Shown here: positions 5,168 through 46,771 of the stretch, one piece after another
Layout: every line of letters starts with the position of its first letter
How positions within the stretch are numbered: position 1 is the stretch's first letter
NCBI RefSeq assembly: GCF_003614185.1
Contig: NZ_KZ987724.1
Location: forward strand, 4,552,608 to 4,616,607
Length of the DNA: 64,000 nt
Source of the DNA: Paenibacillus aceti
GTDB lineage: Bacteria; Bacillota; Bacilli; Paenibacillales; Paenibacillaceae
Direction: 5' to 3'
The notes under the pieces: generated by a model
Databases searched by the model: none
Seen by the model: the letters and a program-made list of their open reading frames with translations, nothing else
What the model was told of the DNA's origin: nothing
Translations under genes and position numbers: made by a program

Positions 5168-5794
5168 ATGCTATTAAGGAGGAAAAGAACTGTTATACTA
5201 ATTGCTCTAGCAGCTATAATCCTTATTGCATCTTGTTTCTATTATTTTGTCATATATCATTCAGTTCGCACTGTGAGCATTCAAGCAGACTATAAGGGGT
5301 ATTCAACCGGTGAGGCATTATTCTCAGGAGCAGAGTTGGTCGTCATTGGAAGCCCGATTAAAGACTTTGAGGACCGAGAGATGCAGGTTACTACTTTTAG
5401 CACGACAGGGGCTATAGAGGACTTCTATACATTAACAGAAATTAAAGTTGAAAGGGTTCTAAAAGGCTCGGTAGAGTCTCCAATTCTAAAAGTAATTGAA
5501 CCTATTGCCCTGAATCAGACTTTAACAGGCAGAGAAAAAATAGCGTTTGAAGATTACACTGAAATGAAGAACGGCAGCCAATACTTAATATTTATGAGGA
5601 GAAATACGAAGGGTCAGTATAGTGTGATTAATATGCAAGCTGGCAAGTTTAACTTGGATCAGACGGACCAAAGCGATTTTTCAAAAGAAAATAAGATTAA
5701 ACAAAAGATTTTTGAAGAAATTAAAATGAGTTTCGGATCTCTAACGAAACACCATATCGCTATTTCCGCAAAAATAAGGGGAATGGGAATCTAA
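5168..5794 (+). CDS. Membrane-anchored protein of unknown function
   Basis: 208 residues; AGGAGG ribosome site overlapping the previous stop. A basic N-terminus (MLLRRKRT) is followed by one hydrophobic segment at about residues 9-29, then an extracytoplasmic domain with a strand pattern (ELVVIGSPIKDF, TEIKVERVLKGS, GSQYLIFMRRNTKGQYSVIN). This resembles small exported proteins of toxin or immunity loci, but no family is recognised. The last 17 residues (LTKHHIAISAKIRGMGI) are encoded by the intergenic repeat starting at 5741, and the stop codon lies in the second module of that repeat. The natural C-terminus was therefore probably shortened or replaced. Confidence 0.6.
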   Translation: MLLRRKRTVILIALAAIILIASCFYYFVIYHSVRTVSIQADYKGYSTGEALFSGAELVVIGSPIKDFEDREMQVTTFSTTGAIEDFYTLTEIKVERVLKGSVESPILKVIEPIALNQTLTGREKIAFEDYTEMKNGSQYLIFMRRNTKGQYSVINMQAGKFNLDQTDQSDFSKENKIKQKIFEEIKMSFGSLTKHHIAISAKIRGMGI

Positions 5795-5924
5795 CGAAAC
5801 ACCATGTCGCTATTTGGCTAAAATCTCGGGTTCCAGGCAGAAATGAACCCCAATAGCGATGCCCAGTTTCGTTAGATTCGTAAATCCCCCTTTTTGAGGC
5901 AAATAGCGATACCTAGTTTCGTAA
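5741..5924. repeat. Four-module intergenic palindromic element, class 1, copy 1
   Basis: Four modules of about 25 bp built on CTAACGAAAC...ATCGCTATTT start at 5741 and 5791 (forward) and at 5851 and 5901 (inverted). Spacing of starts is 50, 60 and 50 bp. The spacers between modules 1/2 and 3/4 are also partly inverted copies (CAAAAA-GGGG against CCCCCTTTTTG). The centre has GGGTTC...GAACCC. The whole unit can fold as one imperfect hairpin. It lies between convergent genes and overlaps the 3' end of the upstream ORF. A second copy is at 46587-46771. Confidence 0.85.
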
Positions 5925-5954
5925 CAATCAAGGCCAGCGAAGTTTCGCCTTCTA

Positions 5955-7082
5955 CTAAGCCAATCTCATCCGGAAATCCTCATAGCCGAATTCGTGCACC
6001 ACCTGGTAGTCGCCGTTCTTGTCGCAGAGGACAAGGGCGGGGAGCGGCATGCCGTTGAAGGTAGTGTTCTTCACCATGGAGTAGATCGCCATGTCGCCGA
6101 AGACGAGGCGATCGCCACACTTCAGCGGCTGATCGAACGAGTAGTCGCCGATGTTGTCGCCGGAGAGGCAGGTCGGCCCCCCAAGCCGGTACGTATATGG
6201 CTTCTCGCCGGGCTCCCCGGAGCCGAGCAGCGGCGGACGATAAGGCATCTCCAGCACGTCTGGCATATGGCAGGAGGCGGACGCATCCAGGATGGCGATA
6301 TCCATCCCGTTCTGCATCGTATCGAGCACCGAAGTGATCAGGAAGCCGGCGTTCAGCGCGACAGCCTCGCCCGGCTCCAGGTAGACTTCTAAGCCGTACT
6401 TCTCCTGCATGCGGCGGATGCATTGCTCCAGCAAGGGGATATCATAATCCTCTCTCGTGATATGATGGCCCCCGCCGAAGTTGATCCATTCCATTTGCGA
6501 CAGCCATGGCCCGAATTTCTCTTCCACCGCATCCAGCGTCGTCGCCAGATCGTCGGAGTTCTGCTGGCATAGCGTATGGAAGTGCAGTCCGGAGATTCCC
6601 TCCAGCAGATCCGGGCGGAAATGCTCCCGGGTCACGCCGAATCGCGAACCGACGGCACAAGGATTGTAGATGTCATGCCCGACCTGAGTCGAGCATTCCG
6701 GATTGGTTCGCAGTCCGATCTTCTTGCCAGCGGCCAGCACCCGATCACCGAACTTCTCCACCTGAGAGAAGGAGTTAAAGATAATATGATCGCAGAGCTT
6801 AATAATTTCGTCGATCTGATCCTCCCGGTAGGCCGGGGCAAAGCAATGATTTTCTTTGCCCATTTCCTCATGGCCTAGCCGAGCCTCGTACAATCCGCTG
6901 GATGCTGTTCCACTCAAATAGCGGCCGATCAGTGGATAGGTCGTATACATCGAGAAAGCCTTCTGTGCCAAGATGATCTTGGCACCGGTGCGCTCCATAA
7001 TACCGCCTAGTATTTTAAGATTTTGCTCCAATAAAGCTTCGTCTACTACATAGCATGGGGTAGGCAGTTCTTCAAAACGCAT
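5955..7082 (-). CDS. nspC: Carboxynorspermidine/carboxyspermidine decarboxylase
   Basis: 375 residues from the ATG at 7082; longer upstream frames are less likely because this ATG lies 1 nt past the stop of the preceding gene, a coupled arrangement. It is a fold-III PLP decarboxylase: substrate-binding ELPTPCYVVDE at the N-terminus, the PLP lysine in LAQKAF (K41), LHFHTLCQQ, INFGGGHH and the C-terminal GPTCLSGDNIGDY block typical of this family rather than of LysA or SpeA. It removes CO2 from carboxynorspermidine or carboxyspermidine, the last step of the aspartate-semialdehyde polyamine route. Partner of the dehydrogenase gene immediately upstream. Which polyamine is made cannot be read from sequence. 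Confidence 0.93.
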   Translation of the reverse strand: MRFEELPTPCYVVDEALLEQNLKILGGIMERTGAKIILAQKAFSMYTTYPLIGRYLSGTASSGLYEARLGHEEMGKENHCFAPAYREDQIDEIIKLCDHIIFNSFSQVEKFGDRVLAAGKKIGLRTNPECSTQVGHDIYNPCAVGSRFGVTREHFRPDLLEGISGLHFHTLCQQNSDDLATTLDAVEEKFGPWLSQMEWINFGGGHHITREDYDIPLLEQCIRRMQEKYGLEVYLEPGEAVALNAGFLITSVLDTMQNGMDIAILDASASCHMPDVLEMPYRPPLLGSGEPGEKPYTYRLGGPTCLSGDNIGDYSFDQPLKCGDRLVFGDMAIYSMVKNTTFNGMPLPALVLCDKNGDYQVVHEFGYEDFRMRLA

Positions 7083-7083
7083 C

Positions 7084-8334
7084 TTAGCGAACCAGCTCCG
7101 CTTCCCGGTCTTTAGCCGCTGCGTCTTCCAGATAAGCATCGACCAGCTCGGGATCGAAGCTTTCTTGCCATGGAAGCCCCCATTTGTTCAGCGCATCCAT
7201 GAATGGATCAGGATCGAATTCTTCGATGTTGTAGACGCCTGGTTTATTCCATTTGCCAGTCATCACCATCATCGCTCCGATCATGGCAGGTACGCCGGTT
7301 GTATAAGCAACAGCCTGCGAGCCGACTTCTTTATAGCATTCTTCGTGGTTGCACACGTTGTAGACATAGTACATCTTGTCTTTGCCGTCCTTCTTGCCTT
7401 TGAAGATGCAGCCGATATTCGTCTTGCCCTTCGTGCGCGGTCCCAGGGAAGATGGGTCCGGCAATACAGCCTTCAGGAATTGCAGCGGAATGATCTGCTT
7501 GCCTTCGAATTCAATCGGCTCGATCGAGGTCATACCGACATTTTCAAGGCATTTCAAGTGAGTCAGATAGCTCTGACCGAAGGTCATGAAGAAGCGGATG
7601 CGTTTCACGCCCGGAATGTTCAGAGCCAGCGACTCGATCTCTTCGTGATGCAGCAGATACATATCCTTTTCCCCGATTTCAGGGAAGTTGTATACGCGTT
7701 TGATCTCCATCGGTTCAGTCTCAACCCATTCGCCGTTCTCCCAGTAGCTGCCGTTCGCCGTGACTTCACGGATATTGATCTCTGGGTTGAAGTTGGTAGC
7801 GAACGGATACCCATGGTCGCCAGCGTTGCAGTCGAGAATATCGATGCATTCAATTTCATCAAAATGATGCTTCAAAGCATGGGCGGAGAATACGCCAGTC
7901 ACGCCCGGATCGAAGCCGCTGCCCAGCAGGGCGGTAATTCCAGCTTGCTCAAAGCGCTCACGGTATTCCCATTGCCATTTATATTCGAATTTCGCCGTAT
8001 CTTCCGGCTCGTAATTAGCTGTATCCATGTAGTTGGTCTTGGTTGTCAGGCAAGCGTCCATGATCGTCAAATCTTGATAAGGCAGGGCCAGGTTCATGAC
8101 GATATCCGGCTTCACTTCCTCAATCAGCGCGATCAGTTCTTCCACATTGTTAGCATCAACCTGAGCGGTTGTAATTTTCGTCTTGCCTCCATCCAGCTTC
8201 GCCTTCAGGGCGTCACATTTGGATTTCGTACGGCTCGCGATGCAGATTTCCTCGAAGACCTCACTGTTCTGGCAGCATTTATGAATGGCTACCGAAGCCA
8301 CGCCGCCGCAACCGATAATAAGCGCTTTTCCCAT
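7084..8334 (-). CDS. Carboxynorspermidine/carboxyspermidine dehydrogenase (saccharopine dehydrogenase-like)
   Basis: 416 residues. The Rossmann nucleotide-binding motif IIGCGGVASVAIHKC is at the N-terminus, followed by a GSGFDPGVTGVFSAH segment and a C-terminal domain of the saccharopine-dehydrogenase type (YYVYNVCNHEECYKE, AYTTGVPA). It condenses aspartate semialdehyde with a diamine and reduces the Schiff base to carboxy(nor)spermidine, feeding the decarboxylase encoded next. The two genes are separated by a single base, so translation is probably coupled. The ribosome site GGAGAAATG lies just upstream. A leader hairpin at 8380-8422 may regulate the operon. Lysine saccharopine metabolism is the alternative but is disfavoured by the nspC neighbour. 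Confidence 0.9.
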   Translation of the reverse strand: MGKALIIGCGGVASVAIHKCCQNSEVFEEICIASRTKSKCDALKAKLDGGKTKITTAQVDANNVEELIALIEEVKPDIVMNLALPYQDLTIMDACLTTKTNYMDTANYEPEDTAKFEYKWQWEYRERFEQAGITALLGSGFDPGVTGVFSAHALKHHFDEIECIDILDCNAGDHGYPFATNFNPEINIREVTANGSYWENGEWVETEPMEIKRVYNFPEIGEKDMYLLHHEEIESLALNIPGVKRIRFFMTFGQSYLTHLKCLENVGMTSIEPIEFEGKQIIPLQFLKAVLPDPSSLGPRTKGKTNIGCIFKGKKDGKDKMYYVYNVCNHEECYKEVGSQAVAYTTGVPAMIGAMMVMTGKWNKPGVYNIEEFDPDPFMDALNKWGLPWQESFDPELVDAYLEDAAAKDREAELVR

Positions 8335-8379
8335 TGTTCATTTCTCCTATCTCCATGGTTTTTTTTGTGGTCAACACGC

Positions 8380-8422
8380 AAAAAAACAAGTGAATATATG
8401 CGCCTAGCGCACACATCACTTG
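8380..8422 (-). promoter_or_regulatory. Terminator-like hairpin in the leader of the polyamine operon
   Basis: Read on the minus strand, CAAGTGA pairs with TCACTTG, an inner TGCGC pairs with GCGCA, and seven T residues follow directly. It ends about 45 nt before the dehydrogenase start. No other minus-strand gene lies within 850 bp upstream, so an attenuator or riboswitch expression platform is plausible. A neighbouring stem, CTTCA...TGAAG (8423-8445), could be a competing structure. Alternative: the terminator of an unseen small RNA. Confidence 0.5.
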
Positions 8423-8445
8423 CTTCAGATATATCGATTATGAAG

Positions 8446-9183
8446 TATCTCCAATAGAAATCATCGGACATATATCATCATGCCATCGCAAAATACACAC
8501 AAAAAATCCGCGATGCACGAAGATCCCTCAATATTCAAATATATCCTGCTTGATCAGAGTCTATATAGCAAATAATCGCCTTTACCACTCTTATTGACCG
8601 TTTCACAAGTTGATGTGCATAAGCACTGGTTGTAAAGTAACCAACTTATAAAATTTGAGCTTTTAACTCAATCAATAAGGCAACGCGAGGTTGCCGATCG
8701 GCATTTGACCCGGCTGTCCGTATGGCCTTAACTTCCCGGGAGAGGAAGTGGTCAAAGAATTATCTGCTTGGAAAGACTCGCAAAATATATTGAATACCGA
8801 CTTTCCAAATTGCTCTTTTATATTAGCAGGAGTTTATTCATTCGGCAATATAAATTTTAAAATTTTATTTACAGGTATTTCGTGGGCATATTTTATAAGG
8901 TTCTGACATAGTACTTTTCCTAACTGTTCTTAGGTCGATCAAATACCATTTCTTTGGAACTGATCTTCTTATGAGTAGGCTTGGCACAGCTTTGGGAGAT
9001 GACTTACTGGTCCTTATCTAGGCCATTTACGTATTGCATTCGACTTGGATAATAGATGTTATCACGGGCATGTTCTAATTCGTTGCAGTAAGGAAAAGCG
9101 ACGCCCTATTGGACGTCGTTTCTTTAGTATAGAACTGTTTACTCAGCCTGACCCCTACACTTCGTAGCCTTATGAATATTATC
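8446..9183. other. Non-coding stretch without a recognisable gene
   Basis: About 740 bp with no credible ORF. It presumably holds the promoter and any leader of the polyamine operon (minus strand). A terminator-like hairpin lies at 9094-9125 (AGCGACG against CGTCGTTT, then TCTTT). Short GC-rich dyads such as GGCAACGCGAGGTTGCC near 8681 suggest decayed transferred DNA. Nothing more can be assigned. Confidence 0.5.
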
Positions 9184-10428
9184 GAGATCAGTGTAGGAGT
9201 CCAGATTCATTAATACTTCCTATAAGTGGATAATCTACCAATAGAATCGAGGGGGATCAGAGTCGGAAGATACACCTCCCCCTACCCCATTAGAATGGAC
9301 ATTAGCTTTTCCATGTAAATGTTTGGATCGCTCATTCTAGAAAGTAATACTTGAGACGTCATTGGGTTCCATGTATGGTGATGGGCAAAATTCTTTGCCA
9401 ACTTCAGCGTGATGCGACGACTGTGCTTGACTAGCGTCCCAGCACAATGAAAGAACTCCAGCCTGAATCGGGCAATCGTATAACCCCGGTGAACTGGTTC
9501 ACAGCATTCCCGTTTAAATCGCTCATAGAGGTTGTAAGCCAACAGCTTCACTAGCAGATCGATTTCATTGGCTTCAAAAGAGCCAGTCGCTTCGTTCATT
9601 TGAGTTTGCCGGTATAGCTGATCTTATGCGTTTCGAAAAGCTGGTAGAAGGACTCTCCGCCAAATCCTTTGTCAAAGCGGGCATACTTCACGGTTCTCCC
9701 CTTCAAAAGCGTGAGCGTTTGCTCCAAAAAGGGAACTGCATCCGTCGATGAGTGCGTATTTCCTGCACGTAAAGCTACATTCAAACACAACCGGGATTGC
9801 CCTTCAAAAATGAGCAGCGGGTGGTAGCTCTTACGTCCAGGCTTGTGGGGATTGGTACCCTTCGCCGCCTTGGCTTGATTTCCGTATACTGTCTCTACGG
9901 TGGAATCGAGATCGAGAATAAGCGAGGAAGGCAGACAGGGCCGGATAATTTCACTACTAAGCTGGCGTAGTTGCTGCTGGACATGGGGAGTACCCTTGCC
10001 AAGGCGGGCGAGCTCTTTGTACAACAGAGAATGGTGCGGACAACGGCCCCCAAGAAATCGACGGAGAAGCGAATCCTGCTGCAGACGACGAAAATGAAAG
10101 AGCCGTTCATAGCCCAGTATCCAGCCGATGAGTAGGTAGAGCAAGATCCGGCGAACCGGGAAAAGAGCATTGCTGGCTTTCTTACCCTGGAAGAGATCGT
10201 GTAGAGCTTCGGGTAGCTTGATTTTTTCCAGGAAGTCGAGAAATACTTTGCTTCCTCCAACGCTGCCTCGGACAAGGAAAATTCGGTCTTGATTTTATAA
10301 ATGGGTGTGGTAGACTTCACCTAAAAGGTGCTCCTTTCTTTGGGTGATGTTGTTCGGTCAAACACCATTCTACCAAAGATTCGGAGCCTTTGTTATGTTT
10401 TTAGAGAGCAATACTTTCGGAATTCAGG
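9184..10428 (-). mobile_element. Defective IS1380-family element, copy A
   Basis: Near-identical to copy B at 13362-14607 over about 1.22 kb (offset 4178). The right end carries the terminal repeat TTTCGGAATTCAGG (10415-10428), one base different from the TTTCGAAATTCAGG of copies B and C. No matching left repeat is seen at the shared left breakpoint (GAGATCAG), so the element is left-truncated. Its transposase is broken; see the pseudogene. Confidence 0.8.
9282..10320 (-). pseudogene. IS1380 transposase, frameshifted and internally deleted (copy A)
   Basis: A GTG-started N-terminus (MKSTTPIYKIKTEFSLSEAA) shifts frame near 10250. The main frame 10144-9596 holds the IS1380 signature LDLDSTVETVYGNQ, NPHKPGRKSYHP and RFDKGFGGESFY, then stops after YTGKLK. 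A separate frame 9599-9282 gives the C-terminal block (EIDLLVKLLAYNLYERFKRE). Compared with the relative at 15447-16748, a middle segment of more than 100 residues is missing. The enzyme cannot be functional. Confidence 0.85.
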
Positions 10429-10502
10429 TTTATGTGTTTTATTAAAACACCGTATTTTCAAAGGGATTAAGGCATTTCTAATCATTCTGATTTACCCGCA
10501 AA

Positions 10503-11078
10503 TTACCCGTAAAGACTCGTGTAGCTTGCTGATTTGTGTTCTAGAGTTATCCAGTTAACCGTTAATACCCATTCGAAATCGTCGCCCATTTGTAGTTGGC
10601 GTCGTTTTGTAATGTGCAGATAGATAAGTTTAGTTGTTTTCGAATTACTTCTGTGCCCGATGCGAGCTTGAATCTCAGCCAACCCTACTTTTGGATTTTC
10701 TGCCAGTAAGGATACGTGCGTATGACGTAGGCTATGTGGAGTGAAATTGCTAGGTAAGCCAGCGTTATCTAATACTTTACGCATTAATTCTGGCATAAAC
10801 GCAATTGCTATTGGATATCCCAGATGTTTGAGGCTCCAAAAAACAAAATTATCGTTAGGGTTAAAGCCTTTAGCTGAGAGCTTTTCTTTCTCCTGTCAGT
10901 TATAGAGTTCTTCCAAGACCAGCGCAACGGTTTCACTGTAATTCACGATCCGCTCACTTTGTTCATTCTTGAGAGGTTCAAAAGTATAGTTAATCACATT
11001 ATCGCCGCCAAGTTGTTTATTGATGTCGATGGTTCTTTTTACCGTATCGATATCATAAAGAACTATGAATTCGCTCAT
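10503..11078 (-). pseudogene. Tyrosine recombinase (phage/ICE integrase) remnant
   Basis: The minus-strand frame reads from DIDTVKRTIDINKQLGG through EQSERIVNYSETVALVLEE, then a TGA stop at 10896-10898. It continues in the same frame as QEKEKLSAKGFNPNDNFVFW to the catalytic box HSLRHTH, the IGHRSNSKTT segment and IYLH (likely nucleophile Tyr). This is the C-terminal half of a Tn916/phage-type integrase. One nonsense codon and loss of the N-terminal half make it inactive. It marks an earlier integrated element next to the HNH/SUKH pair. Confidence 0.75.
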
Positions 11079-11496
11079 CAGCAGATGGAGAACGGTATGG
11101 ATGCTTACAGCAGAGGGAACGGCTGGTAAGAGAGATACAGGTCAAGAACTCACGGCTGACGTAACCGCCAATTCCGTTGTGCTTAAAGACAAACGTCATA
11201 CCAGCTACAAATACTATCTCTTCATCTCAAATAACATAAAATTCGCAATCAATAACTTAAGAGATCTGCACGAAGGAATAATTGCAAAGCTTCTCTTCTT
11301 GGAAGGTATGAAATATCTTAAAGATCAAGAGTATTTAAGTAAAGGGTACAGGAACAGATGTCTACCCGATCTCACCGACAACATTCGCAGATATATCGCT
11401 AACTTAGCCAACAGTTTAAAGATAAACCGTACATTAGATTGTGTAATAATCTCCTATGGAAGCGTACGCAGCGAAGAAGGAGAAATAGGATTATGA
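11065..11496 (+). CDS. Uncertain ORF of unknown function
   Basis: 143 codons starting inside the integrase remnant on the opposite strand. The C-terminal two thirds look protein-like (IAKLLFLEGMKYLKDQEYLS, then IRRYIANLANSLKINR). The N-terminus is low quality and no ribosome site is evident. It could be the relic of a gene whose start was lost when the region rearranged. No family recognised; low confidence that it is expressed. Confidence 0.25.
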   Translation: MNSLISRWRTVWMLTAEGTAGKRDTGQELTADVTANSVVLKDKRHTSYKYYLFISNNIKFAINNLRDLHEGIIAKLLFLEGMKYLKDQEYLSKGYRNRCLPDLTDNIRRYIANLANSLKINRTLDCVIISYGSVRSEEGEIGL

Positions 11497-11655
11497 CTTC
11501 CTTTTGTAGGCTAAAGTAGAAACTATATATATGAATATTATGTGAATTAAAGTCACGATTTGGAAAAATATGATAGTATAATAATGGAAAGAGAGGTGAG
11601 TATAGTTAATTTTTTGAAATATTAAAAACAAAACATAAATATGGAGGTAGAACAA

Positions 11656-13361: not shown

Positions 13362-14607
13362 GAGATCAGTGTAGGAGTCCAGATTCATTAATACTTCCTA
13401 TAAGTGGATAATCTACCAATAGAATCGAGGGGGATCAGAGTCGGAAGATACACCTCCCCCTACCCCATTAGAATGGACATTAGCTTTTCCATGTAAATGT
13501 TTGGATCGCTCATTCTAGAAAGTAATACTTGAGACGTCATTGGGTTCCATGTATGGTGATGGGCAAAATTCTTTGCCAACTTCAGCGTGATGCGACGACT
13601 GTGCTTGACTAGCGTCCCAGCACAATGAAAGAACTCCAGCCTGAATCGGGCAATCGTATAACCCCGGTGAACTGGTTCACAGCATTCCCGTTTAAATCGC
13701 TCATAGAGGTTGTAAGCCAACAGCTTCACTAGCAGATCGATTTCATTGGCTTCAAAAGAGCCAGTCGCTTCGTTCATTTGAGTTTGCCGGTATAGCTGAT
13801 CTTATGCGTTTCGAAAAGCTGGTAGAAGGACTCTCCGCCAAATCCTTTGTCAAAGCGGGCATACTTCACGGTTCTCCCCTTCAAAAGCGTGAGCGTTTGC
13901 TCCAAAAAGGGAACTGCATCCGTCGATGAGTGCGTATTTCCTGCACGTAAAGCTACATTCAAACACAACCGGGATTGCCCTTCAAAAATGAGCAGCGGGT
14001 GGTAGCTCTTACGTCCAGGCTTGTGGGGATTGGTACCCTTCGCCGCCTTGGCTTGATTTCCGTATACTGTCTCTACGGTGGAATCGAGATCGAGAATAAG
14101 CGAGGAAGGCAGACAGGGCCGGATAATTTCACTACTAAGCTGGCGTAGTTGCTGCTGGACATGGGGAGTACCCTTGCCAAGGCGGGCGAGCTCTTTGTAC
14201 AACAGAGAATGGTGCGGACAACGGCCCCCAAGAAATCGACGGAGAAGCGAATCCTGCTGCAGACGACGAAAATGAAAGAGCCGTTCATAGCCCAGTATCC
14301 AGCCGATGAGTAGGTAGAGCAAGATCCGGCGAACCGGGAAAAGAGCATTGCTGGCTTTCTTACCCTGGAAGAGATCGTGTAGAGCTTCGGGTAGCTTGAT
14401 TTTTTCCAGGAAGTCGAGAAATACTTTGCTTCCTCCAACGCTGCCTCGGACAAGGAAAATTCGGTCTTGATTTTATAAATGGGTGTGGTAGACTTCACCT
14501 AAAAGGTGCTCCTTTCTTTGGGTGATGTTGTTCGGTCAAACACCATTCTACCAAAGATTCGGAGCCTTTGTTATGTTTTTAGAGAAACGATACTTTCGAA
14601 ATTCAGG
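13362..14607 (-). mobile_element. Defective IS1380-family element, copy B
   Basis: Same orientation as copy A and near-identical to it from GAGATCAG (13362) to about 14583. The last about 25 bp diverge, and here the end is the canonical TTTCGAAATTCAGG (14594-14607). No left terminal repeat is seen. The right end cuts into the small gene at 14603-15091, supplying its stop codon. Copies A and B flank the integrase relic and the HNH/SUKH pair as direct repeats. Confidence 0.8.
13460..14498 (-). pseudogene. IS1380 transposase, frameshifted and internally deleted (copy B)
   Basis: It carries exactly the same lesions as copy A: an N-terminal frameshift near 14428, a stop after YTGKLK at 13774, a missing middle segment, and an out-of-frame C-terminal block from 13777 to 13460. 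Identical defects mean the copies arose by duplication or conversion of an already dead element, or by transposase supplied in trans. Confidence 0.85.
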
Positions 14608-15091
14608 TTAAATTTTTTAACTTAGCAGTACCTGTCTTATGATTAGTAACCCCGTTTACTTCATATATAATTTCAATATTAATTTCATCGTCAGTTCGAA
14701 CTTTTACACCTTTAATTAAATTTCCAAAGGTATAGTGTATCTTTCCATTGATTGTATCGGGTAAAGTAAATGGATCATCTGCTTGAATATTCGACAAAAT
14801 CATTTTTTCACCAAAGATATACTATAAGCAACACTTGAAAATTGTTTGTTTTCCCCCGATTATTTCCAAATAATGATCAGAAACATACACAGAGCTTGAG
14901 GCTGGATAATCTATAAGTTTTATATTTCTTATTCGAAAGTCAGTTGTTTCAATAGTAAAACTATAGACCTTTGGATCTTGATGAAGTAAAAATTGTTGAT
15001 ACGAAAGAATAATAATAGTCGTGATTAGAATAAGACATAATGATGTTAATGCTAAGTTTTTTCTAAACATAGTGTCTCTCCTTTTAATCAC
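14603..15091 (-). pseudogene. Small membrane-anchored protein, frameshifted and cut by IS copy B
   Basis: The N-terminal frame 15091-14822 starts after a GGAGAG ribosome site (likely ATG at 15070, MFRKNLALTS), with one hydrophobic segment (LCLILITTIIILSY) and an extracytoplasmic part ending YLEIIGGKQT. A one-base frameshift near 14845 moves the rest to the frame that reads FSSVAYSISLVKKMILSN and then NGKIHYTFGNLIKGVKV. The C-terminal stop codon lies in the IS terminal repeat, so the natural end is lost. Function unknown. Confidence 0.5.
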
Positions 15092-15272: not shown

Positions 15273-16857
15273 CCTGAATTTCGAAAGCCCATAATGGTGG
15301 CCAGTTTGTAGCAGGATTAGTAGGCAACAACTGTAATAAACAGGGAAATACCCAGTGGATTACGCGACGATTCTGAAAAGAGGGTAGTCTTTCCCCCTCC
15401 CCATAAGACAGGGCTAAACGGTTTCCATGTTAATTTGTGGTAAACGTCATTCTAAGGCAGCGACTTTGGCGGCGATACGTTGCCAGGCGCAGCGGTTCGC
15501 GAAATCTTTAGCCAGTTTCAGAACGACTTGTCGGCTATGCTGAATCATCGTAGCTGCACAGTGGAAAAACTCTAGACGGAACCGGGCAATCGTATACCCT
15601 TGATGGACCGGTTCGCAACAGTCTCGCTTGAATCTCTCGTAGAGATTGTAGGCGAGCAGCTTGATGAGCAGGTCGATTTCATTAGCGGTAAAGTCACGCC
15701 ATCGCTAAGCTAGCTACCTTTTCGGCGCAAACCGAAGAAACTATATCAAGAGGTACGTCGTTGCGACCAACATTTTCGCGGTTTCCAGCTAGCCGAGGGT
15801 GAGCTCTAACCAGACGATCGCTTCGTAATGCCAGTCCGTATCGAGGAGAAGCCGAGCTTGATCGCCGTCAAACACCTGCGCTTTACGAATCACCACAACG
15901 CGGCGCGGTTTCTTCCATGAGGTGGCTTGGTAGATCAGGGTGATCCCCTCGATGACCCAATCCTCATCGACAAACCGCTTCCAGTAGCGGCATCGCCCTA
16001 CTTCGGCCTGAAGTCGCTGCGTCCATTTCAATTTCCCGACATACCCGATTCGCTTGGCTTCCCATAGGCTGTAGAAGTCTTCGCCGCCAAATCCCTTGTC
16101 AAACCGGGCGTACTTTACCGGACGGTCACCAAGCAACTCAAAGATCTGACGGAGGAAGGCGGCTGCATCGGCGGAAGCGTGCGTATTCCCAGCACGCAGT
16201 ACTGCATTCAGGCACAGGCGCGACTGGCCCTCAAACGCCATCAGCGGATGGTAACTTTTACGTCCGGGTTTGTGGGGATTCGTGCCGACTGCCGCCCCCT
16301 CTTGGTGACCGTATACCGTTTCTACCGTGGAGTCTAGGTCCACGATGAGTTCAGAAGGCAGACAGGGTGCAATAATCTGCTGATTCAGCTTTCGCAAATC
16401 CAGCGTTAAGGTTGGGCGGGTCTTGCTGAGTCGATCCAGTTCCTTATACAGCAGGGTGTGATGCGGACAGCGCCCGCCGAGAAACCGCCGGATGAGCGCG
16501 TCATGTTGCAGCCTGCGGAAATGAAAGAGGCGTTCGCATCCGAGTATCCAGCCGACAATGAGATAGAGCAGGATGCGGAAAACAGGGAACAGGGAATTGC
16601 CTTGCTTGGTACAATTTAAATTCTGCAAAGCCTTACCGAGCTTGATTTTTTCGAGATATTCCAGAAAGATTTTGCTTCCTCCAACATTTGAGGCGTTTTG
16701 CAAGGTAAATTCGGTCTTGATTTTGCTGACGGGTGTGGTAGACTTCATCTAAAAGGTGCTCCTTTCTTTGTAGGTGATGTTCTGGACAAACACCATTCTA
16801 CCAAAGAATTGGAGCCCTTTTCTTGTTTTTCAGACGATGTTACTTTCGAAATTCAGG
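15273..16857 (-). mobile_element. IS1380-family element, copy C, with both ends and target duplication
   Basis: 1585 bp bounded by inverted repeats CCTGAATTTCGAAAG (from 15273) and CTTTCGAAATTCAGG (to 16857). ATAAT flanks both sides (15268-15272 and 16858-16862), a 4-5 bp target duplication as in IS1380 elements. The size is close to the family norm, but the transposase is broken. Clearly a different subtype from copies A and B. Confidence 0.88.
15447..16748 (-). pseudogene. IS1380 transposase (copy C), disrupted in the C-terminal third
   Basis: The main frame 16748-15789 gives 319 residues with the family blocks VDLDSTVETVYGHQEGAA, NPHKPGRKSYHP and RFDKGFGGEDFYSLW. It then shifts frame and stops at WLELTLG. 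Degenerate sequence at 15715-15788 is followed by the usual C-terminal block on the same strand (NEIDLLIKLLAYNLYERFKR, ending KVAALE at 15447). Full-length relatives are about 440-460 residues. Inactive. Confidence 0.8.
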
Positions 16858-16862
16858 ATAAT

Positions 16863-21562: not shown

Positions 21563-21751
21563 CTTAGTTGCAGAAATACACTTATTTCCGGGGGAACCCG
21601 CTTGAAATCAGAAAATAGCTGCGGATATACAACTATTTCCTGACCAAAGCGCTGATTGAGGGAGAAATCCCCCGAATAGTTGCATAATTGCATTTACATT
21701 TCCTGTATAGGGGATAAGCGTGGCAAATAGTTGCACGTTAGCATTTATTTT
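21563..21751. repeat. Four-module intergenic element, class 2, copy 1
   Basis: Modules of about 25-28 bp based on AAATAGTTGCA...TGCATTTA start near 21563, 21613, 21674 and 21725 (spacing 50, 61, 51). Module 2 is nearly palindromic (AAATAGCTG...CAACTATTT). Located between the convergent cupin and DeoR genes. A second copy with the same spacing is at 31839-32026, and a related element is at 31610. Confidence 0.8.
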
Positions 21752-31552: not shown

Positions 31553-31609
31553 TGCTCCTAGAGTACTCTATCGCGCACTACACTACACTACGTTACGGAA
31601 GTTCCTTCA

Positions 31610-31792
31610 ATTGCACAAAGTGCAGCTAAAACCTCACAAATCAGCGCAGGCTTTCCTTTAATCGCAAAAAGTACACTTAAAAGCCCGTTTTCCCTCGAAC
31701 CCTTGGAAACAGGTGATTCTAAGTGTACAAAATGCAACTGAAAGAGTGCTCCTCCAGTCATTTCCCTATATAAGTGTATAATTTGCAGTTAT
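31610..31792. repeat. Four-module intergenic palindromic element, class 2-related
   Basis: Modules TTGCACAAAGTGCAGC (31611) and TCGCAAAAAGTACACTTA (31662) are forward; TAAGTGTACAAAATGCAACT (31720) and TAAGTGTATAATTTGCAG (31771) are inverted. Starts are spaced about 50, 58 and 51 bp. Modules 2 and 3 are strong inverted copies. The core AGTTGCA...TACACTTA is shared with the class 2 elements, one of which follows 47 bp further on. Confidence 0.75.
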
Positions 31793-31838
31793 ATATTACA
31801 TTGCAGTCTTTATTGCAAACTGCGTTCCTCAAATGGAG

Positions 31839-32026
31839 CTTAGTTGCAGAAATACACTTATTTTCAGCAAATCCATCTTGAAATCAGGAATAGATGCGGA
31901 TATACAACTATTTCCCGAATTTAGCTTCGTTCAGAGGATAAATCATCCGAATAGTTGCAGAATTGCATTTATATTACCTGTTGAGGCCATAAGGAGCGCA
32001 AATAGTTGTATATATGCACTTCTATT
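31839..32026. repeat. Four-module intergenic element, class 2, copy 2
   Basis: The same module order and spacing as 21563-21751: starts near 31839, 31889, 31949 and 31999. TTAGTTGCAGAAATACACTT at its start is identical to the first copy. The final module contains the stop codon of the minus-strand LacI gene (32022-32024). It lies between convergent ahpF and the LacI gene. Confidence 0.82.
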
Positions 32027-40353: not shown

Positions 40354-40382
40354 GATAGTATACTAGGTTAGTTTGTATTGGA

Positions 40383-40410
40383 GCCTCCGCCGTCAGGCGG
40401 GGGTTTTTTT
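40383..40410 (+). terminator. Terminator of the sugar operon
   Basis: GCCTCCGCC and GGCGGGGG-type stem around GTCA, followed by TTTTTTT, 30 bp after the beta-helix gene. Confidence 0.88.
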
Positions 40411-40456
40411 GCGAGAAATAACGGGAATCAGAGGAGCGATGGGATCGCCATGATAC

Positions 40457-40640
40457 AGTGGTCAAAAATGACCGTTAGAGCATGAAAACAACAATTACGC
40501 TCCTCCAACGGACACTTTTGACCATTAGAAGCACAAATTGCGATTTTTCGCGACAAATCCCTTTGTAATGGACACCCTTGTCCGTTACAAGGGCAGGATG
40601 CCACGGGATCAACGCTAACGGACAATAATGTCCGTGTCCG
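40457..40640. repeat. Four-module intergenic palindromic element, class 3
   Basis: Four modules, each a dyad of the form TAACGGACA-NNN-TGTCCGTTA, start near 40457, 40505, 40565 and 40614 (spacing about 48, 60, 49). Examples are AATGGACACCCTTGTCCGTT (40567) and AACGGACAATAATGTCCGTG (40617). It lies between the convergent beta-helix and ktrB genes. Same length and geometry as the other elements, but unrelated module sequence. Confidence 0.8.
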
Positions 40641-40678
40641 AGTTGACACGGACAGAGCATGGGGATGTTCACATTTTT

Positions 40679-40733
40679 GGGGCACGCAAAAGAGGCGTCT
40701 CTAAGTCGAAAGATCGACTTTTGAGACAGCCCC
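40679..40733 (-). terminator. Large hairpin downstream of ktrB
   Basis: GGGGC...GCCCC enclosing GTCTC...GAGAC and AGTCGA...TCGACT. The minus strand begins GGGGCTGTCTCAAAAGTCGA, resembling sequences often seen at IS ends or terminators in this phylum. Its position suggests that it terminates ktrB; a mobile-element end remains possible. Confidence 0.5.
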
Positions 40734-40761
40734 GTAGTCCATTGTATAAATTGCTAGCGTA

Positions 40762-42138
40762 TTATCCCGAAATCACTCTCTCCACAGGATAATGGATTTT
40801 CGGTTTCTTCTTCTTGCCTCCAATAATGAAGATGAACGAGGTCAGACCGATTCTCCCAATGAACATGAGCATCATCAGCAGAAATTTGGCGAAAGCGCTT
40901 AGCTCTGGTGTAATGCCCGTGGACATGCCCACCGTACCAAAGGCAGAGCATACCTCCAAAATGATCGATATCAGCTGATGATGGGAATCCGTAATATTGA
41001 TAACAATGGCGGAGGCTCCGCACATCACAATGGCAAGCAGCATAATCGCCAGTGATTTCATAACATCATCCGGATGAATTTCTCGCTTAAAGATTTTGAT
41101 CTCACGATTCCCTCTGATGTAGTTATACATAAATAAGATGCACACTGCAAAGGTCGTGGTTCGAATTCCTCCGCCTACAGAGTTGGGAGATCCACCAATA
41201 AACATGTAGATGCTCATGACAAGCAGAGTAGACTCTGACAATTGGGTGATATCCATCGTCGTTAATCCGGCACTTCGGGTCGAAGTGGATTGGAAGAAAG
41301 AGTAGAAGAACCTCTCATGCCATGACATTCCCTTAAAATAATGTTGATATTCAAGCAAGAAGATAAGAATCGTCCCAATGACCAGAAGAATAAGATACGT
41401 CGATGTTGTTAATTTGGCAAATAGGGAGAAGCGAAAGGGTGGAGCCTGCTTGTCCCTTCTTCTCGATAAGAAAGTCTTAATCTCAATCAGTACCGGAAAT
41501 CCGATGGCTCCAAAGATGATCAAGATACTGGTAACGACTTGTACAAAATAATCATTGGCAAAAGGCACCAGCGATTGCCCGGTAATATCCACCCCGGCGT
41601 TCGTCGTTGCACTGACGGATGCAAATAAACCTTGTAGGAAGGCTTCATGCCAGGTTGGGAAGTAATTAAGGAAATGAAGTCCGAAAATAATAGCTCCAAT
41701 GAGCTCGGTCAGCAAAATGATCTTTAAAATTTCCTTGATAAATTGAACCAGTCCGGATAATTGAAACTGGTTGTTGTCGATCATGATCAGCTGCCGTTCG
41801 CGCAGTCCAATTTTGCGTCCGATGAGAATCCAGAAGAAGGTGCTCATCGCCATAATCCCAAGACCACCGAACTGCAGCACTAACATAATGATGAAGTATC
41901 CAAATACGCTAAAGGTGTCAGCGACATTCAGTACAGCAAGTCCAGTGTCGCTTACTATGCTAACCGCCGTGAATACCGTATCGTAGAAGCTTACGTTCGT
42001 GCCGCTCCGATATACACCTGGAAGGCAGAACAAACCAACAGATATGCTAACAGCAAGTAAGTAATAGCCGGTGATAACCTGAGCAGGTGAGCGTTTCTCC
42101 AGCCAACCTCGCATTTTACTAAGTAGGGCCAACAACAT
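40762..42138 (-). CDS. ktrB: KtrB/TrkH-family potassium transporter subunit
   Basis: About 458 residues from the ATG at 42138. The GGAGG sequence is only 2 bp upstream, so TTG codons at 42135 or 42132, or TTG 42147, may be the real start. About eight to ten membrane helices in the four-fold M1-P-M2 layout. Filter loops: SVSDTGLAV-type at SIVSDTGLAVLN, SVSATTNAGVDI, STSTRSAGLTTMD and CSAFGTVGMSTG. Na+-dependent K+ uptake with a cytoplasmic KtrA gating ring is known for the family; no KtrA gene is nearby, so the partner must be elsewhere. KtrD is the other possible name. Confidence 0.9.
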   Translation of the reverse strand: MLLALLSKMRGWLEKRSPAQVITGYYLLAVSISVGLFCLPGVYRSGTNVSFYDTVFTAVSIVSDTGLAVLNVADTFSVFGYFIIMLVLQFGGLGIMAMSTFFWILIGRKIGLRERQLIMIDNNQFQLSGLVQFIKEILKIILLTELIGAIIFGLHFLNYFPTWHEAFLQGLFASVSATTNAGVDITGQSLVPFANDYFVQVVTSILIIFGAIGFPVLIEIKTFLSRRRDKQAPPFRFSLFAKLTTSTYLILLVIGTILIFLLEYQHYFKGMSWHERFFYSFFQSTSTRSAGLTTMDITQLSESTLLVMSIYMFIGGSPNSVGGGIRTTTFAVCILFMYNYIRGNREIKIFKREIHPDDVMKSLAIMLLAIVMCGASAIVINITDSHHQLISIILEVCSAFGTVGMSTGITPELSAFAKFLLMMLMFIGRIGLTSFIFIIGGKKKKPKIHYPVERVISG

Positions 42139-42312
42139 GTCCTCCAATTCTTATATCGTAAAAAGAAGCCAACGAAAGAAAGGACTCTTCCGACAGCTCC
42201 AAGGCAGTTTTTCATTGAATCGTAGATTATCATACCCTTGGTATTTCGGCTTGTAAAGGGGGGGATGAGGTCATTATGCTATACTTGGCTTATCATTTCA
42301 GGGCGGTGAACC

Positions 42313-43230
42313 ATGCGAGTAGATCGATTGCTCTCCATTTTACTTATCATCTCAAAAAAAGGGTTGGTGACAGGCAAGGAGCTTGCGGAACATTTTGAGG
42401 TCTCATTGCGAACCATTTACAGGGATATAGAGAAATTAGGGGAAGCAGGTATTCCGGTCGCATCCATCGGGGGTAAAGGCGGGGGCTATTACATTATGGA
42501 GAACTATAATGTGGACAATCTTTTTTTGAAGAAAGATGAAGCTTCTACGTTCGTGGCGATCATGAATAACCTGAATTTTCTGTTTGGGAAAAACGCACAG
42601 TTCAATGCTATGGTTCTAAAGATCGAGAATACATATAACCGAGAAAATACGGATAAGCTCAGCATTAACATGTCCCATTTCAGTATGGAGAATGAATTGA
42701 AGGAATACCTGTATCAGATGAATCAGGCCATTGAAGAAAATAGGCTGATGATATTTGATTATTGCAACAGACAGATGGAGTATTCCGAAAGAACAGTCGA
42801 GCCTGTTCAAATCACATTTACCGCCGGTCAGTGGTATCTGATTGGATTTTGCCGGTACCGGGACGACTACAGAAGGTTCAAGCTGGTACGGATCAGGAAT
42901 TTGAAGCTGGGCGACGGCTTTGCCAAGAGAGATATCACGAAGGAAGAAATCGAGGAAATTTTTGACGAAGGCTACCGCATGCGAAGCATTCAGGTTACTT
43001 TGAAGTTCTCCAATCGAATGGGCAAGCAGCTAACCGAGTATTTTCAAGAGGAGAATATTCAACAAACGGAAGACGGCCAATACCTTGTTGTAGATCAATT
43101 TCCGTATGAGGAAGGATTGCTCAAATATATTTTAGGCTTTGGCAAGGAATGCGAGATTATAGAGCCCCTCTATTTAAGAGATGAATTAATAGAATATGTA
43201 AAAGAATTATTGCTCCCCTACAATGGCTGA
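42313..43230 (+). CDS. YafY-type HTH/WYL transcriptional regulator
   Basis: 305 residues. N-terminal HTH: RVDRLLSILLIISKKGLVTG, then ELAEHFEVSLRTIYRDIEKL and GGKGGGYYI. The WYL domain contains TFTAGQWYLIGFCRYRDDYR then RFKLVRIRNLKL, and a WCX extension completes it. Such regulators bind ligands, often nucleic acids or small molecules, through WYL. Divergent from ktrB and upstream of a broken DUF2785 gene. The target is not known. Confidence 0.88.
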   Translation: MRVDRLLSILLIISKKGLVTGKELAEHFEVSLRTIYRDIEKLGEAGIPVASIGGKGGGYYIMENYNVDNLFLKKDEASTFVAIMNNLNFLFGKNAQFNAMVLKIENTYNRENTDKLSINMSHFSMENELKEYLYQMNQAIEENRLMIFDYCNRQMEYSERTVEPVQITFTAGQWYLIGFCRYRDDYRRFKLVRIRNLKLGDGFAKRDITKEEIEEIFDEGYRMRSIQVTLKFSNRMGKQLTEYFQEENIQQTEDGQYLVVDQFPYEEGLLKYILGFGKECEIIEPLYLRDELIEYVKELLLPYNG

Positions 43231-43299
43231 CATACTGATGTCAGTCGTTTTGTTTTATTGTGGAGGTATACACGGATAGATAAGGAGTGGAATAAAATC

Positions 43300-44155
43300 G
43301 TGGACAATACAAGGGTGAGGCTCATGACGGACCTGCAAAGAATCGAGAAGGAGCATTACCAGCTTCGTGAAGGCGAGCGGCTGCAGGATTTTCTTGCTTT
43401 GATGCTGCACTATATCGGGGACCCCCAGCCGGAATTGCGGGATGATCTAATCTGTACGACATTTTATGAGTGGTTTCAGGACGAGAACATGTTGACGGCA
43501 ACGGAATTGCACAGTCTTCTGGCTGTTCTGACTGATGAGCAGCATTTGTTTTATCGGATTGGCAGCGAGAATGATTCGTCTGTCTTTACAAGGGCATTCT
43601 CCATTCTGCCCCATTGCGTTGATTGCAGAACGCCATAGGATACAGCCTTTTCTGGATCAAGCCGAATTCCAGCATCTCAAGCATTCAGTGCTCCGCTACT
43701 ATAAAGAGGAGAAGGATCTGCGCGGTTATCTACCTGAAGGTGGCTGGGCCCACAGTGCGGCACATGGTGCGGATGCTTTGGATGAGCTGGTTCAGTGTCC
43801 GGAGAGTGATGCAGCGCTACAGCATGAGGTACTTGCTGCGATTCAAGGGAAGTTACATAACGGGATGCAGATTTTTAGCGAAGAGGAAGATGAGCGGATG
43901 GCCACAATCCTGGATACCATGATTGACAAAAAACTGCTCCCGCTGCAGGAGATTGCTGACTGGATTAGTGGGCTGACACACTGCGCTGATTTGCCGCAAA
44001 ATCGTGGCCCGAGGATCGCCCGTGTAAATAGCAAAAACTTTCTCCGCAGTCTTTATTTCAGAAGAGGGAGGAAGATCCGCCGTGGAGATGTTCTTGATGC
44101 TGCCATCCTTGTAGGAGAGGCTAAATTGAACAGATTTTCCATAGGGGAAGATTGA
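43300..44155 (+). pseudogene. DUF2785 protein interrupted by a one-base frameshift
   Basis: The frame from a GTG at 43300 (or ATG 43324) gives MTDLQRIEKEHYQLREGERL and PQPELRDDLICTTFYEW, then runs out at 43636. The other half continues in another frame as PIALIAERHRIQPFLDQ, LRGYLPEGGWAHSAAHGADAL and NSKNFLRSLYFRRG. Removing one C from CCCC (about 43608-43611) joins them perfectly as ILPIALIAERHR. It may be a true recent pseudogene, a slippage site, or a sequencing error. DUF2785 function is unknown. Confidence 0.8.
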
Positions 44156-44312
44156 ATTCAGTTTGATGGAAGTTGCTTTGTTGGAAAGCTAACAGCCCTT
44201 CTTCTGCCTTTTTGGCGGAGAGGGCTGTTTTAATGAAATTTGTTTTATAATATAGGCATATATCATTGAAGCAAGCTGTAAGCCATCTGACTGAATTAGG
44301 AGACAAACGAAA

Positions 44313-45006
44313 ATGAGTGAACATCATCTCGAACACCATCACCACGACCATCACCATCACATCGATCCGAACGGAAATAAAAAGGGGCTAATCATCGCAT
44401 TAACCATTACTCTAGGCGGAGGCCTATGGACGCTTCACGGAACCTCCAACCGTAGCGAGTGGCTCCATGATGCTGATCGCATGTATCGGTCTGTTAGCTA
44501 ATGTCGTCAGTGCCTGGTCTCTAATGAGAAAAGGCGATGTGAAAAATAACATCAATCTACGCAGTGCCTATCTGCACATTCTCGGAGATGCGCTGGGTTC
44601 AGTCGGTGCGATCGCCGCCGGCTTAGTCATGATGATCTTCGGGTGGTATATCGCCGACCCGATCATCAGTGTGCTCGTTGCCCTTCTCATCCTTAGAGGA
44701 GCTTGGGGCGTGATCAAGCATACCATTCATATCCTGATGGAAGGTTCGCCATCTACCGTGAATTCAGCGGAAGTGAAAGCGACATTAGCGAGTATTGACG
44801 GGGTCAAAGACGTGCACGACCTCCATATTTGGACGATTACATCCGGCCTGGATTCGCTAAGCTGCCATCTCTTGATTGAGGACGACTGGGATAGCCAGCA
44901 GATTCTACAGCAAGCCATCCATTTGATCACCGATCAATTTGAAATTCAGCATACAACGATTCAGGTTGAAACCTCAGCGATAGAGCATGGGGAGATGAAG
45001 GTTTGA
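44313..45006 (+). pseudogene. CDF-family Zn2+/Cd2+ efflux protein with internal deletion
   Basis: A His-rich start (SEHHLEHHHHDHHHHIDPNG) and a first membrane segment LIIALTITLG, typical of CzcD, are followed by an out-of-frame join. The second frame (44467-45006) covers from the PPTVASGSMMLIACIGLLAN region to the cytoplasmic domain (VKDVHDLHIWTITSGLDSLS). About 80-100 residues spanning helices 2-4, with the metal-site HxxxD, are missing. The transporter cannot work. Ribosome site GGAG before the ATG. Confidence 0.85.
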
Positions 45007-45043
45007 GGATTAATGACAATAAGACTGGAAGGCGGGGCGTGCG

Positions 45044-46458
45044 ATGAAATCTGGACAAAGTAAAGATCAGCGTATTGCAGAGTATTTAGGGAAGCTTAAT
45101 AAGGAGGAGCTAATCGCGTACTGGTCAATTTCTCGGAGGAAATAGAGGAAGTGAAGCAGGCACTCACTTTGAAGTTCATAGATGTTGGCGGAGAGGAAAG
45201 CTTGAGCCAATACAAACAGATTATCCAGGCATCTATTAAGAAGTATGCGGATCGTCACGGAGTTGTGGCCTATGGGGATGAAGCTTATGCTGTAACAGGT
45301 GCTCAAAGAGTAATGGACAAGGCGTATGAGGCGATCCAAAAGGGCGAGCAGCTTCAAGCTGCTGAAATTTTATTCCTCGTTTTCGATGAAATGAGGGATT
45401 TATTGGGGAGTTGTCATGATCCCGACGGAGACGTTGAAGTATTAATAGAAGATTGTCTGGATTCGATTCATGATATCTCTGTTGAATTAGGGAATAGTGA
45501 CTCAAAGGAGAGAGAGATATTGTTCAAGAGGCTGCTGGAGGAATCTGTTCATCCCGTATTAGAGGGCAGGAGTGAGTGGGGACTTTCTTTCTTGGACGAT
45601 GCTATTAATGTAATGGCGACGGATGCGGAGATAAAATTATGGAGTGCTCTACTAGATGATATGGAAAATAAAAACGGAACAACTTATAGTACATATTTCT
45701 CTAGGCATGCTGCCGAACTAAAGTATAAGGCCGTTCAGAAATTTGAAGGTGTAGACAGCGCGACGGAATTTATACAGAAGCACTTGGATATGCCGGAATT
45801 TCGTGAAAAAGCGATCAAAGCAGCCCTCGACAATCAGAGCTATGATAAGGCACTGGAGTTGGTCAAGCAGGGCGAACAGATCGATGCAGAGAAAAAGTTA
45901 CCTGGCCTCGTTCATAAATGGAAAGTCCATCGTTACGAGATCTATAGGCTTGCTCATCAACTGGAGCAACAGAAGCAATTGGCTGAGGAGTTGGCGCTTG
46001 AAGAAGATTATAGTTACTATTTAATACTCAAAGGGCTCTATGATCAGGATGCTTGGCCAGCGGTGTATGAGGGATTTCTGAATAAGCTTAAGGATAAGAA
46101 GGGCGGGAGAACTTCAGGATTTTATACCGCAGTCCTTGTTGAAGAAGGGGATAATCCCAGACTGATGGAGTATGTTCGTAATAATGCATGGGCGGTAGTT
46201 AACTACTATCCTTATTTGGTCGAGGATTATACAGAGGAAGTATTTCAATGGTTCACACAGGTTATCACTGAAGCAGCGGCCAACGCAACGAAGCGCAAGC
46301 AGTATCAGGAAGTGTGCAAGAAGATTCACACCTTAATTCAAGCAGGAGGTACTGACCCCGCACGTAAACTCCTTAAGCAGCTTCGCGGTGATTATTCAAA
46401 TCGCCCTGCTTTTCTGGATGAGTTGGAGAGGGTGGACACAACAGGAATTGGCCGATAG
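45044..46458 (+). pseudogene. C-terminal half of a SWIM zinc-finger-type protein, frameshifted
   Basis: From the ATG at 45044 the frame reads KSGQSKDQRIAEYLGKLNKE and ELIA, then stops. A one-base shift near 45117 restores VLVNFSEEIEEVKQALTLKF and a long helical frame to about 46435 (IQASIKKYADRHGVVAYGDE, ending NRPAFLDELERV). This matches the helical C-terminal region of Bacillota SWIM-domain proteins; the N-terminal SWIM half is absent. The last residues (DTTGIGR) come from a fusion with an XRE gene remnant. Function of the family unclear. Confidence 0.6.
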
Positions 46459-46633
46459 AGCTGGGCTACATCAGGAGTCTGTTGCTTGCATAGAGGATGG
46501 TCGGAGCGTTCCTTGTTTGGATATTGTAAATCGAATATCTTTTGCTCTCGGTATGAAGTTTAGTTTGCACGGGGACGAGCAGGCGGCTAACGAAACACCA
46601 TATCGCTATTTCCATAAAAACAGCGGCAAATAA
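46436..46633 (+). pseudogene. XRE-family HTH regulator fragment
   Basis: WTQQELADRAGLHQESVACI then EDGRSVPCLDIVNRISFALG is an HTH_3/XRE domain lacking its first helix. Its reading frame begins inside the preceding pseudogene. The C-terminus (NETPYRYFHKNSGK) is encoded by a class 1 repeat module, so both ends are replaced. Confidence 0.65.
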
Positions 46634-46771
46634 AATCTAACGAAACACCATATCGTTATTTCAAGGAAATTCCTGCTTTAGACCCTTAACTTGCCCCAAT
46701 AGCGATACCCTGTTTCGTTAGAATTTCAAACGGCTCCTTTTGGAGAAAATAACGATACGTGGTTTCGTTAG
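46587..46771. repeat. Four-module intergenic palindromic element, class 1, copy 2
   Basis: Modules of the CTAACGAAAC...ATCGCTATTT type start at 46587 and 46637 (forward) and 46697 and 46746 (inverted). Spacing is 50, 60, 49. Length and arrangement match the copy at 5741-5924, and this copy also reads into the end of the upstream ORF. Confidence 0.85.

Follow-up and report, generated by a model that had tools for sequence, protein, structure and literature searches.

Introduction

Among described bacterial repeats, the repetitive extragenic palindromic (REP) sequences and bacterial interspersed mosaic elements (BIMEs) come closest to the elements reported here: in PMC2817692 they are intergenic palindromes of high copy number, arranged as regularly spaced alternating units, and the REP families, as presented in PMC3733652, have a comparable location but carry GTAG/CGTC tags and are accompanied by REP-associated tyrosine transposases (RAYTs). 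Paenibacillus is not mentioned in the main text of PMC12306157. The present analysis concerns 64,000 nt of Paenibacillus aceti (assembly GCF_003614185.1, contig NZ_KZ987724.1, positions 4,552,608-4,616,607 of the forward strand), a stretch called the window throughout. It contains six intergenic elements, each composed of four modules of about 20-25 bp, the third and fourth of which stand in inverted orientation to the first and second. The modules themselves are quasi-palindromes, weakly so in the class referred to below as class 1.

These elements resemble REP and BIME units in having palindromic modules of 20-25 bp, within the 20-40 bp range expected of such units, and in their high intergenic copy number. 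They differ in that they normally contain four sites at a nearly fixed helical spacing, with class sequences that vary while the geometry stays constant. Moreover, the module consensuses show no GTAG or CGTC end tag by eye, no covariation was detected in the hairpin unit, and elements are also present in genomes without Y1/RAYT transposases. Among 16 genomes of the genus, Y1_Tnp was found in five and was not found in G149 and G154, both of which bear elements; on this distribution in the 16 genomes, a REP/RAYT system was rejected. The 14 Y1_Tnp copies of the P. aceti genome have identical scores and apparently represent one insertion sequence, presumably of the IS200 type.

Phased multi-operator loops, such as the repression loops of LacI/DeoR-type regulators and the enhancers with Fis sites, sit at single promoters. 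As in those systems, the palindromic sites described here lie at integral helical turns, which would permit looping, but the elements are many, chromosome-wide and rarely located between divergent genes (4 of 32). Arrays of clustered regularly interspaced short palindromic repeats (CRISPR) consist of short palindromic repeats with fixed-length spacers, whereas these elements normally have four modules, two of them inverted; a CRISPR-like array was rejected on the ground that their spacers share homology from copy to copy. Miniature inverted-repeat transposable elements (MITEs) share with them a non-coding nature, inverted symmetry and family-specific copies, and class 3 lies within a repeat whose ends resemble terminal inverted repeats (TIRs). 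In contrast to MITEs, the elements show no target duplication beside the modules when 55 loci are averaged, their inner distance is nearly fixed and they are constrained in place.

The initial annotation of this DNA knew of no described family with such a four-module spacing rule, and no description of one was found in the literature, listings and abstract openings searched. Because interspersed repeats are usually classified by their sequence, methods of that kind would miss a family defined by an invariant spacing in helical turns. We consider that the elements are probably double-stranded DNA platforms that present four predicted dimer sites on one face of the helix to a single complex, whose protein and function we infer.

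Four-module elements in the window and their genomic copies

The elements were scored with a geometry scan that is given no sequence and measures the mutual likeness of four 24-bp windows at set distances, with windows 1-2 and 3-4 compared directly and all remaining pairs compared as inverted. The six elements scored 93-125 (Table 1). Four other matches in the analysed stretch reached 73-74, the maximum outside the six, and the highest score in three shuffles of 100-bp blocks was 78. All six intergenic elements listed in the initial annotation are present at the places it gave. As a correction to its classes, the elements it gave at 31610 and 31839 belong to related TGCA-type classes. The element it gave at 40457 does have a four-module core, but this core lies within a longer repeat; the end of the right flank is alike in most of 30 class 3 copies, with L064, L073, L084 and L088 deviating.

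Table 1. Coordinates of the four-module elements and of one associated flank (window positions; inv, inverted module).
Feature	Class and half-sites	Position	Strand	Modules	Scores
Element 1	Class 1, TAACGAAA / TATCGTTA	5740..5926	+	5740-5763, 5790-5813, 5853-5876 (inv), 5903-5926 (inv)	scan 115; model R1 156 bits
Element 2	Class 2, TARNTGYA-N4-TRCANYTA	21563..21750	+	21565-21588, 21616-21639, 21673-21696 (inv), 21724-21747 (inv)	scan 98; model R2 145 bits
Element 3	Class 4, TGCA-type	31605..31794	+	31605-31628, 31656-31679, 31720-31743 (inv), 31771-31794 (inv)	scan 95; 34 own-genome matches to query, many partial
Element 4	Class 2	31839..32025	+	31840-31863, 31890-31913, 31949-31972 (inv), 32000-32023 (inv)	scan 100; model R2 141 bits
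Element 5	Class 3, TAACGGACA-N4-TGTCCGTTA	40456..40637	+	40456-40479, 40506-40529, 40564-40587 (inv), 40614-40637 (inv)	scan 93
Right flank of longer class 3 repeat, hairpin then GACAGCCCC at end		40638..40733	+		
Element 6	Class 1	46587..46772	+	46587-46610, 46637-46660, 46698-46721 (inv), 46748-46771 (inv)	scan 125; model R1 143 bits

Applied to 464 kb of contiguous sequence from this chromosome, the window included, the scan returned 32 matches at a threshold of >=80, every one above 84. This corresponds to about one per 14.5 kb and, by extrapolation from this sample, to about 375-390 elements per genome. Among these 32 matches, C1:4719356 is an extra-module extension of a neighbouring element, in the L029 region (C1:4719350-4719682), where additional modules, spaced 50 bp apart, lengthen a class 1 element. 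The module pattern of class 1, allowing up to three mismatches, occurs 332 times in forward and 330 times in reverse orientation in the P. aceti genome, against only 1 and 4 occurrences of the same pattern read backwards. Within-genome BLAST searches with four query elements gave 217, 90, 46 and 41 first-look candidates, of which 40 each were scored; the class 3 relatives (40 of 46 candidates scored) were mostly 80-92% identical. Median nearest-neighbour identities were 0.95 for class 3, 0.84 for class 1 and 0.73 for class 2 (30, 30 and 25 aligned copies). In L085 and L088, module 3 of class 3 is the exact reverse complement of that in most copies, as if the palindrome had been flipped in place.

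The module types of this genome include TAACGAAA, TARNTGYA with a related TGCA variant, TAACGGACA and CCTGCA, and at least five module sequences are present within the one genome. Relatives in several families of the order add TAACGGAA, TAACTGGA, TAACTTCA, a GGGA-N4-TCCC type and others. In our reading of the listed modules, many may be described by a half-site that combines approximately TAAC/TARN with a variable triplet, arranged about a centre of 4-5 bp. At 55 TAACG-type loci, the spacers contain weakly conserved A/T tracts, and no conservation was seen outside modules 1 and 4.

Helical phasing of the modules

When equal arms of 30-81 bp were tried on the DNA of P. aceti and of G154, a largely syntenic relative from which 432 kb were compared, matches scoring >=90 appeared only at 50 bp (20 matches) and 51 bp (8 matches). 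With the 32 matches of the 464-kb sample, this did not bear out the refutation named in the initial annotation, namely random spacing of genomic copies or the presence of only six units. For the four main classes, 49 matches were gathered from these two genomes and from a named set of 80 loci around ahpF (P. aceti excluded). Their centre-to-centre distances bear out the near-constant 50-60-50 geometry of the initial annotation: the arms measure 49-51 bp, and the central gap is 60-63 bp in 47 matches, 59 in one and 53 in one.

Distances anchored on the motifs were preferred because, in the geometry scan, the inner distance trades off with window position; varying the central gap in that scan is accordingly no control. 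Motif anchoring, with arms allowed to range over 42-59 bp and the centre over 42-83 bp, was applied to 97 loci (96 from other genomes, one from P. aceti), which are not independent because they were found with sequence models, built on 50/61/50 elements, and because many of those from genus g7 are mutual orthologues. Both arms are 49-51 bp long at all 97 loci, and at 95 of them the two inner modules are separated by a central gap close to 52, 61-62 or 71-72 bp, that is, in steps of about one helical turn. The gap depends on the lineage: it is 71-72 bp in genus g7 (27/27 loci), 51-52 bp in family f57 (9/9, two genomes), 60-63 bp in other loci of the family of P. aceti (41/43) and 59-62 bp in family f56 (16/18, the others being one of 51 bp with a low motif score and one of 72 bp). 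The two outliers of the P. aceti family, at 75 and 78 bp, suggest misplaced anchors, given their low motif scores and model matches of 187 and 181 bp. We count at least four apparent changes of the central gap (g7, f57 and two f56 loci), one of them poorly anchored.

Sequence-blind scans of 400 kb in two further genomes, each stretch including two previously known loci, are in accord with this. In G049, 12 of 13 matches are of the TAACG type at 50-51/71-72/50-51 bp, and the thirteenth, at 54/54/54, has the appearance of a coding repeat. G451 yielded 14 matches, and one of its known loci fell below the threshold. Among the 13 matches listed, three lie at about 52/62/52, one at 51/52/51, one at 51/51/51 and two are doubtful, and six further ones fall within one tandem array (five at 51/51/51, one at 51/51/48). 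Classes of about 51/51-52/51 and about 52/62/52 hence stand side by side in this genome. The locus L425 (14815-15835) of G451 carries the palindrome AAGCGCG-ATA-CGCGCTT 20 times in tandem, with a step of 51 bp (50 bp in one case), just upstream of a reading frame that we take to be transketolase-like.

Conservation of modules and spacers

Spacer length is retained while spacer sequence diverges. In class 1, the three spacers measure 25 bp in 30/30, 35 bp in 27/30 and 25 bp in 29/30 copies, and the column majority reaches 0.93 for the modules but 0.67-0.80 for the spacers. The younger copies of class 3 have values of 0.94 in modules and 0.90-0.91 in spacers. Eight orthologue groups were compared, seven picked by alignment length over element and flank and one by hand. 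Of the aligned columns, 47/800 were variable within modules, 95/753 within spacers and 391/1866 within flanks (Fisher p=4e-6 for modules against spacers, p=4e-7 for spacers against flanks), the former being the fairer contrast because the flank counts take in poorly alignable sequence. Gapped columns numbered 0, 3 and 271, respectively, and in two of the eight groups nothing changed inside the element.

Distribution among relatives

The class 1 model matched 94 of 148 genomes of the family, in 16 of 19 genera (E<=0.001). Among 299 sampled Bacilli it matched 19 at E<=1e-4, 18 of them within the family, and the class 2 model matched 61 of 198 genomes of the order, spread over four families. In the 80 named ahpF loci, model R1 gave no match and model R2 seven at E<=0.1, while 20 matches came from the geometry scan and none from a single shuffled version of the set; L166, L184, L197, L205 and L210 are doubtful, and the 15 trusted matches all come from records labelled Paenibacillus or Paenibacillaceae. 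A class 1 element, the class searched there, had no blastn match in phage or plasmid records. The arm pattern occurs in four IMG/VR contigs, and the scan found full elements in L383 only and none in the other three. The two four-module elements of that contig are those at L383:3382 and L383:8801, and one of them represents a further class, of the TAGCCGA type with 52-bp arms.

A proposed nucleoprotein platform and the alternatives to it

In the mechanism that we propose, each palindromic module would be occupied by a dimer of a DNA-binding protein with sequence specificity, and the sites would lie about 5, 6 (5 or 7 in some lineages) and 5 helical turns apart. With sites spaced by integral turns, bound dimers would face one side of the helix, and they would come together in a single compact complex, looped or wrapped. 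Recognition of the different classes would fall to related proteins that differ in specificity. Phased binding of a multimeric protein at 5 and 6 helical turns had been one suggestion of the initial annotation. The geometry supports it, with binding itself as the putative step, because the arms are fixed, lineages differ in the centre by steps of roughly 10 bp and conservation is greater for length than for spacer sequence. As part of this whole reading, half-site sequence and the rotational register of the sites are probably maintained more strictly than the sequence of the spacers.

Several observations weigh against such a platform. Thirteen matches outside the main classes, some of them doubtful, have centres of 52-72 bp, and the central gaps that are 10 bp longer or shorter may stem from few evolutionary events. 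Spacers vary less than flanks, so that either they are themselves constrained or the flanks are partly misaligned. The RNA folding energy lies below that of shuffled sequence (30 mononucleotide shuffles each) in 62 of 64 strand folds, with z from -1.8 to -12.8; the remaining two gave 0.9 and -0.3. At 33 of 45 gene-3' sides, a crude finder saw no terminator-like site ahead of the element, so many elements may be transcribed. The 432 kb of G154 contain 10 matches, compared with 32 in the 464 kb of P. aceti. While 23 of these 32 lie in 20 gaps with collinear flanks in G154 (the other nine are not comparable), G154 has an element in only six of the 20 gaps, of the same class in two. Finally, no dedicated partner or binding-protein family was evident among 643 neighbouring open reading frames (ORFs). 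The largest clusters of these (19, 6 and 6 members) appear by eye to be mostly translated repeat DNA, and the others include ABC transporters (6), LacI-type regulators (4) and response regulators (4), some of them from overlapping loci.

As to function, chromosome architecture or insulation in gene-end regions is a role that position tentatively points to, since most of the units lie by the 3' ends of genes and many of them have convergent genes on either side. According to a crude ORF call in the 464-kb sample, 17 of 32 elements lie between convergent genes and four between divergent ones; convergent and divergent regions there account for 15,450 and 18,705 of 73,904 bp of intergenic DNA, the elements themselves adding to the convergent share. 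A set of 113 retrieved loci comprised 50 in convergent and 10 in divergent settings. If the reading is true, a bacterial chromosome would bear, scattered along its length, hundreds of sites on which an architectural complex assembles, which is directly testable, and there would be a handle on the contents of convergent intergenic space in these bacteria. The centres of about 52, 62 and 72 bp would also form a natural series, evolution's own experiment on helical phasing. A broader and somewhat more speculative possibility is that order-wide nucleoprotein platforms exist in Paenibacillus-type bacteria, in which rotational geometry would be conserved and recognition sequence free to change, paralogous DNA-binding proteins each having their own four-site arrays, hundreds per genome, for chromosome organization or gene-end insulation.

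The main rival to a protein-bound platform, and an unlikely one, is a non-autonomous MITE-like element whose transposase or recombinase would act on two sites at each end, so that the geometry would reflect the transposition complex. Lineage-specific families are in keeping with mobility, and the fast turnover relative to G154 fits mobile DNA and keeps this explanation alive. However, orthologous elements are common to several genomes of genus g7, and orthologues are constrained in place; taken together, turnover and constraint indicate that elements are gained and lost, but that those which are retained are under constraint. The four best G154 gaps yielded no simple insertion boundary, and a clean empty site was not obtained. 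The class 3 copies, mostly 80-92% alike, form part of a longer repeat whose ends, GGGGCTGTC/GACAGCCCC, are TIR-like, but these ends fall outside the four-module core. The distance between modules 2 and 3 is nearly fixed within a lineage, whereas the internal length of a MITE is free. Although the borders of one locus, L294, carry an 8-bp direct repeat, the 55 TAACG-class loci show on average neither target-site duplication at the module borders (1.89 vs 1.89 bp permuted, p=0.50) nor inverted extension there (p=0.67). Half-elements are present, for instance at C1:4953196, 4778147 and 4879318. An autonomous element with cargo between half-elements was set aside: neither a cargo pair in the lists nor a cargo-bearing split element among the stray modules of the 464 kb was evident, pairs not having been sought systematically. 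Tandem copies in G149 also speak for mobility. In this genome (L255-L259), arrays comprise two to six four-module matches, for example five at a period of about 220 bp, and whole elements repeat at periods of about 220 or 286 bp.

An RNA or a single-stranded or cruciform element, either as one long hairpin (M1:M4, M2:M3, with M1 to M4 denoting the modules) or as four hairpins on 3' untranslated regions, is very improbable. The low folding energies on both strands do indicate hairpin potential, but this is expected anyway from inverted repeats, and the predicted fold topology differs between classes (mostly M1:M4 with M2:M3 in class 1; M1:M2 and M3:M4, or local pairing, in class 3). The location near gene 3' ends, mostly with no terminator-like site ahead of the element, agrees with an RNA role, whereas nothing obvious about RNA would account for a central gap that changes by 10 bp at a time. 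If the arms were paired, spacers should match better within their own element than across elements. No such excess was seen in class 1 (0.506 vs 0.498 permuted, p=0.17), class 3 (p=0.46) or class 2 (p=0.72), and no covariation of class 2 half-sites was detected when twelve pairings were each assessed with four scoring schemes (lowest p 0.04 among 48 tests). The long RNA or DNA hairpin of the initial annotation therefore lost support, and RNA or cruciform structure was dropped after these pairing tests of spacers and class 2 half-sites. An Rfam scan of the window gave no match at the elements; its sole match was SpF59_sRNA (ldcC RNA) at 8698-8754 (-), with 74.6 bits (gathering 37.2) and E 1.3e-11.

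Least credible of all is a functionless by-product of duplication of a 50-51 bp unit followed by inversion: the extra modules at 50-bp steps beside L029 and the 20-unit 51-bp tandem array of G451 show that such units can duplicate, but the spacers have diverged at near-constant length, orthologous modules change less than spacers with few indels, and the same geometry recurs across differing sequence classes.

Other features of the window

Copies of a DDE_Tnp_1_4 transposase region with split reading frames are located at 9184-10433, 13362-14611 and 15499-16861; two are largely identical, and the third is 71-90% alike in pieces. An AAA_5 ATPase gene adjoins a DUF2357/PDDEXK_7 nuclease gene at 56721-61212 (+), a pair that, we assume, resembles a two-gene restriction system.

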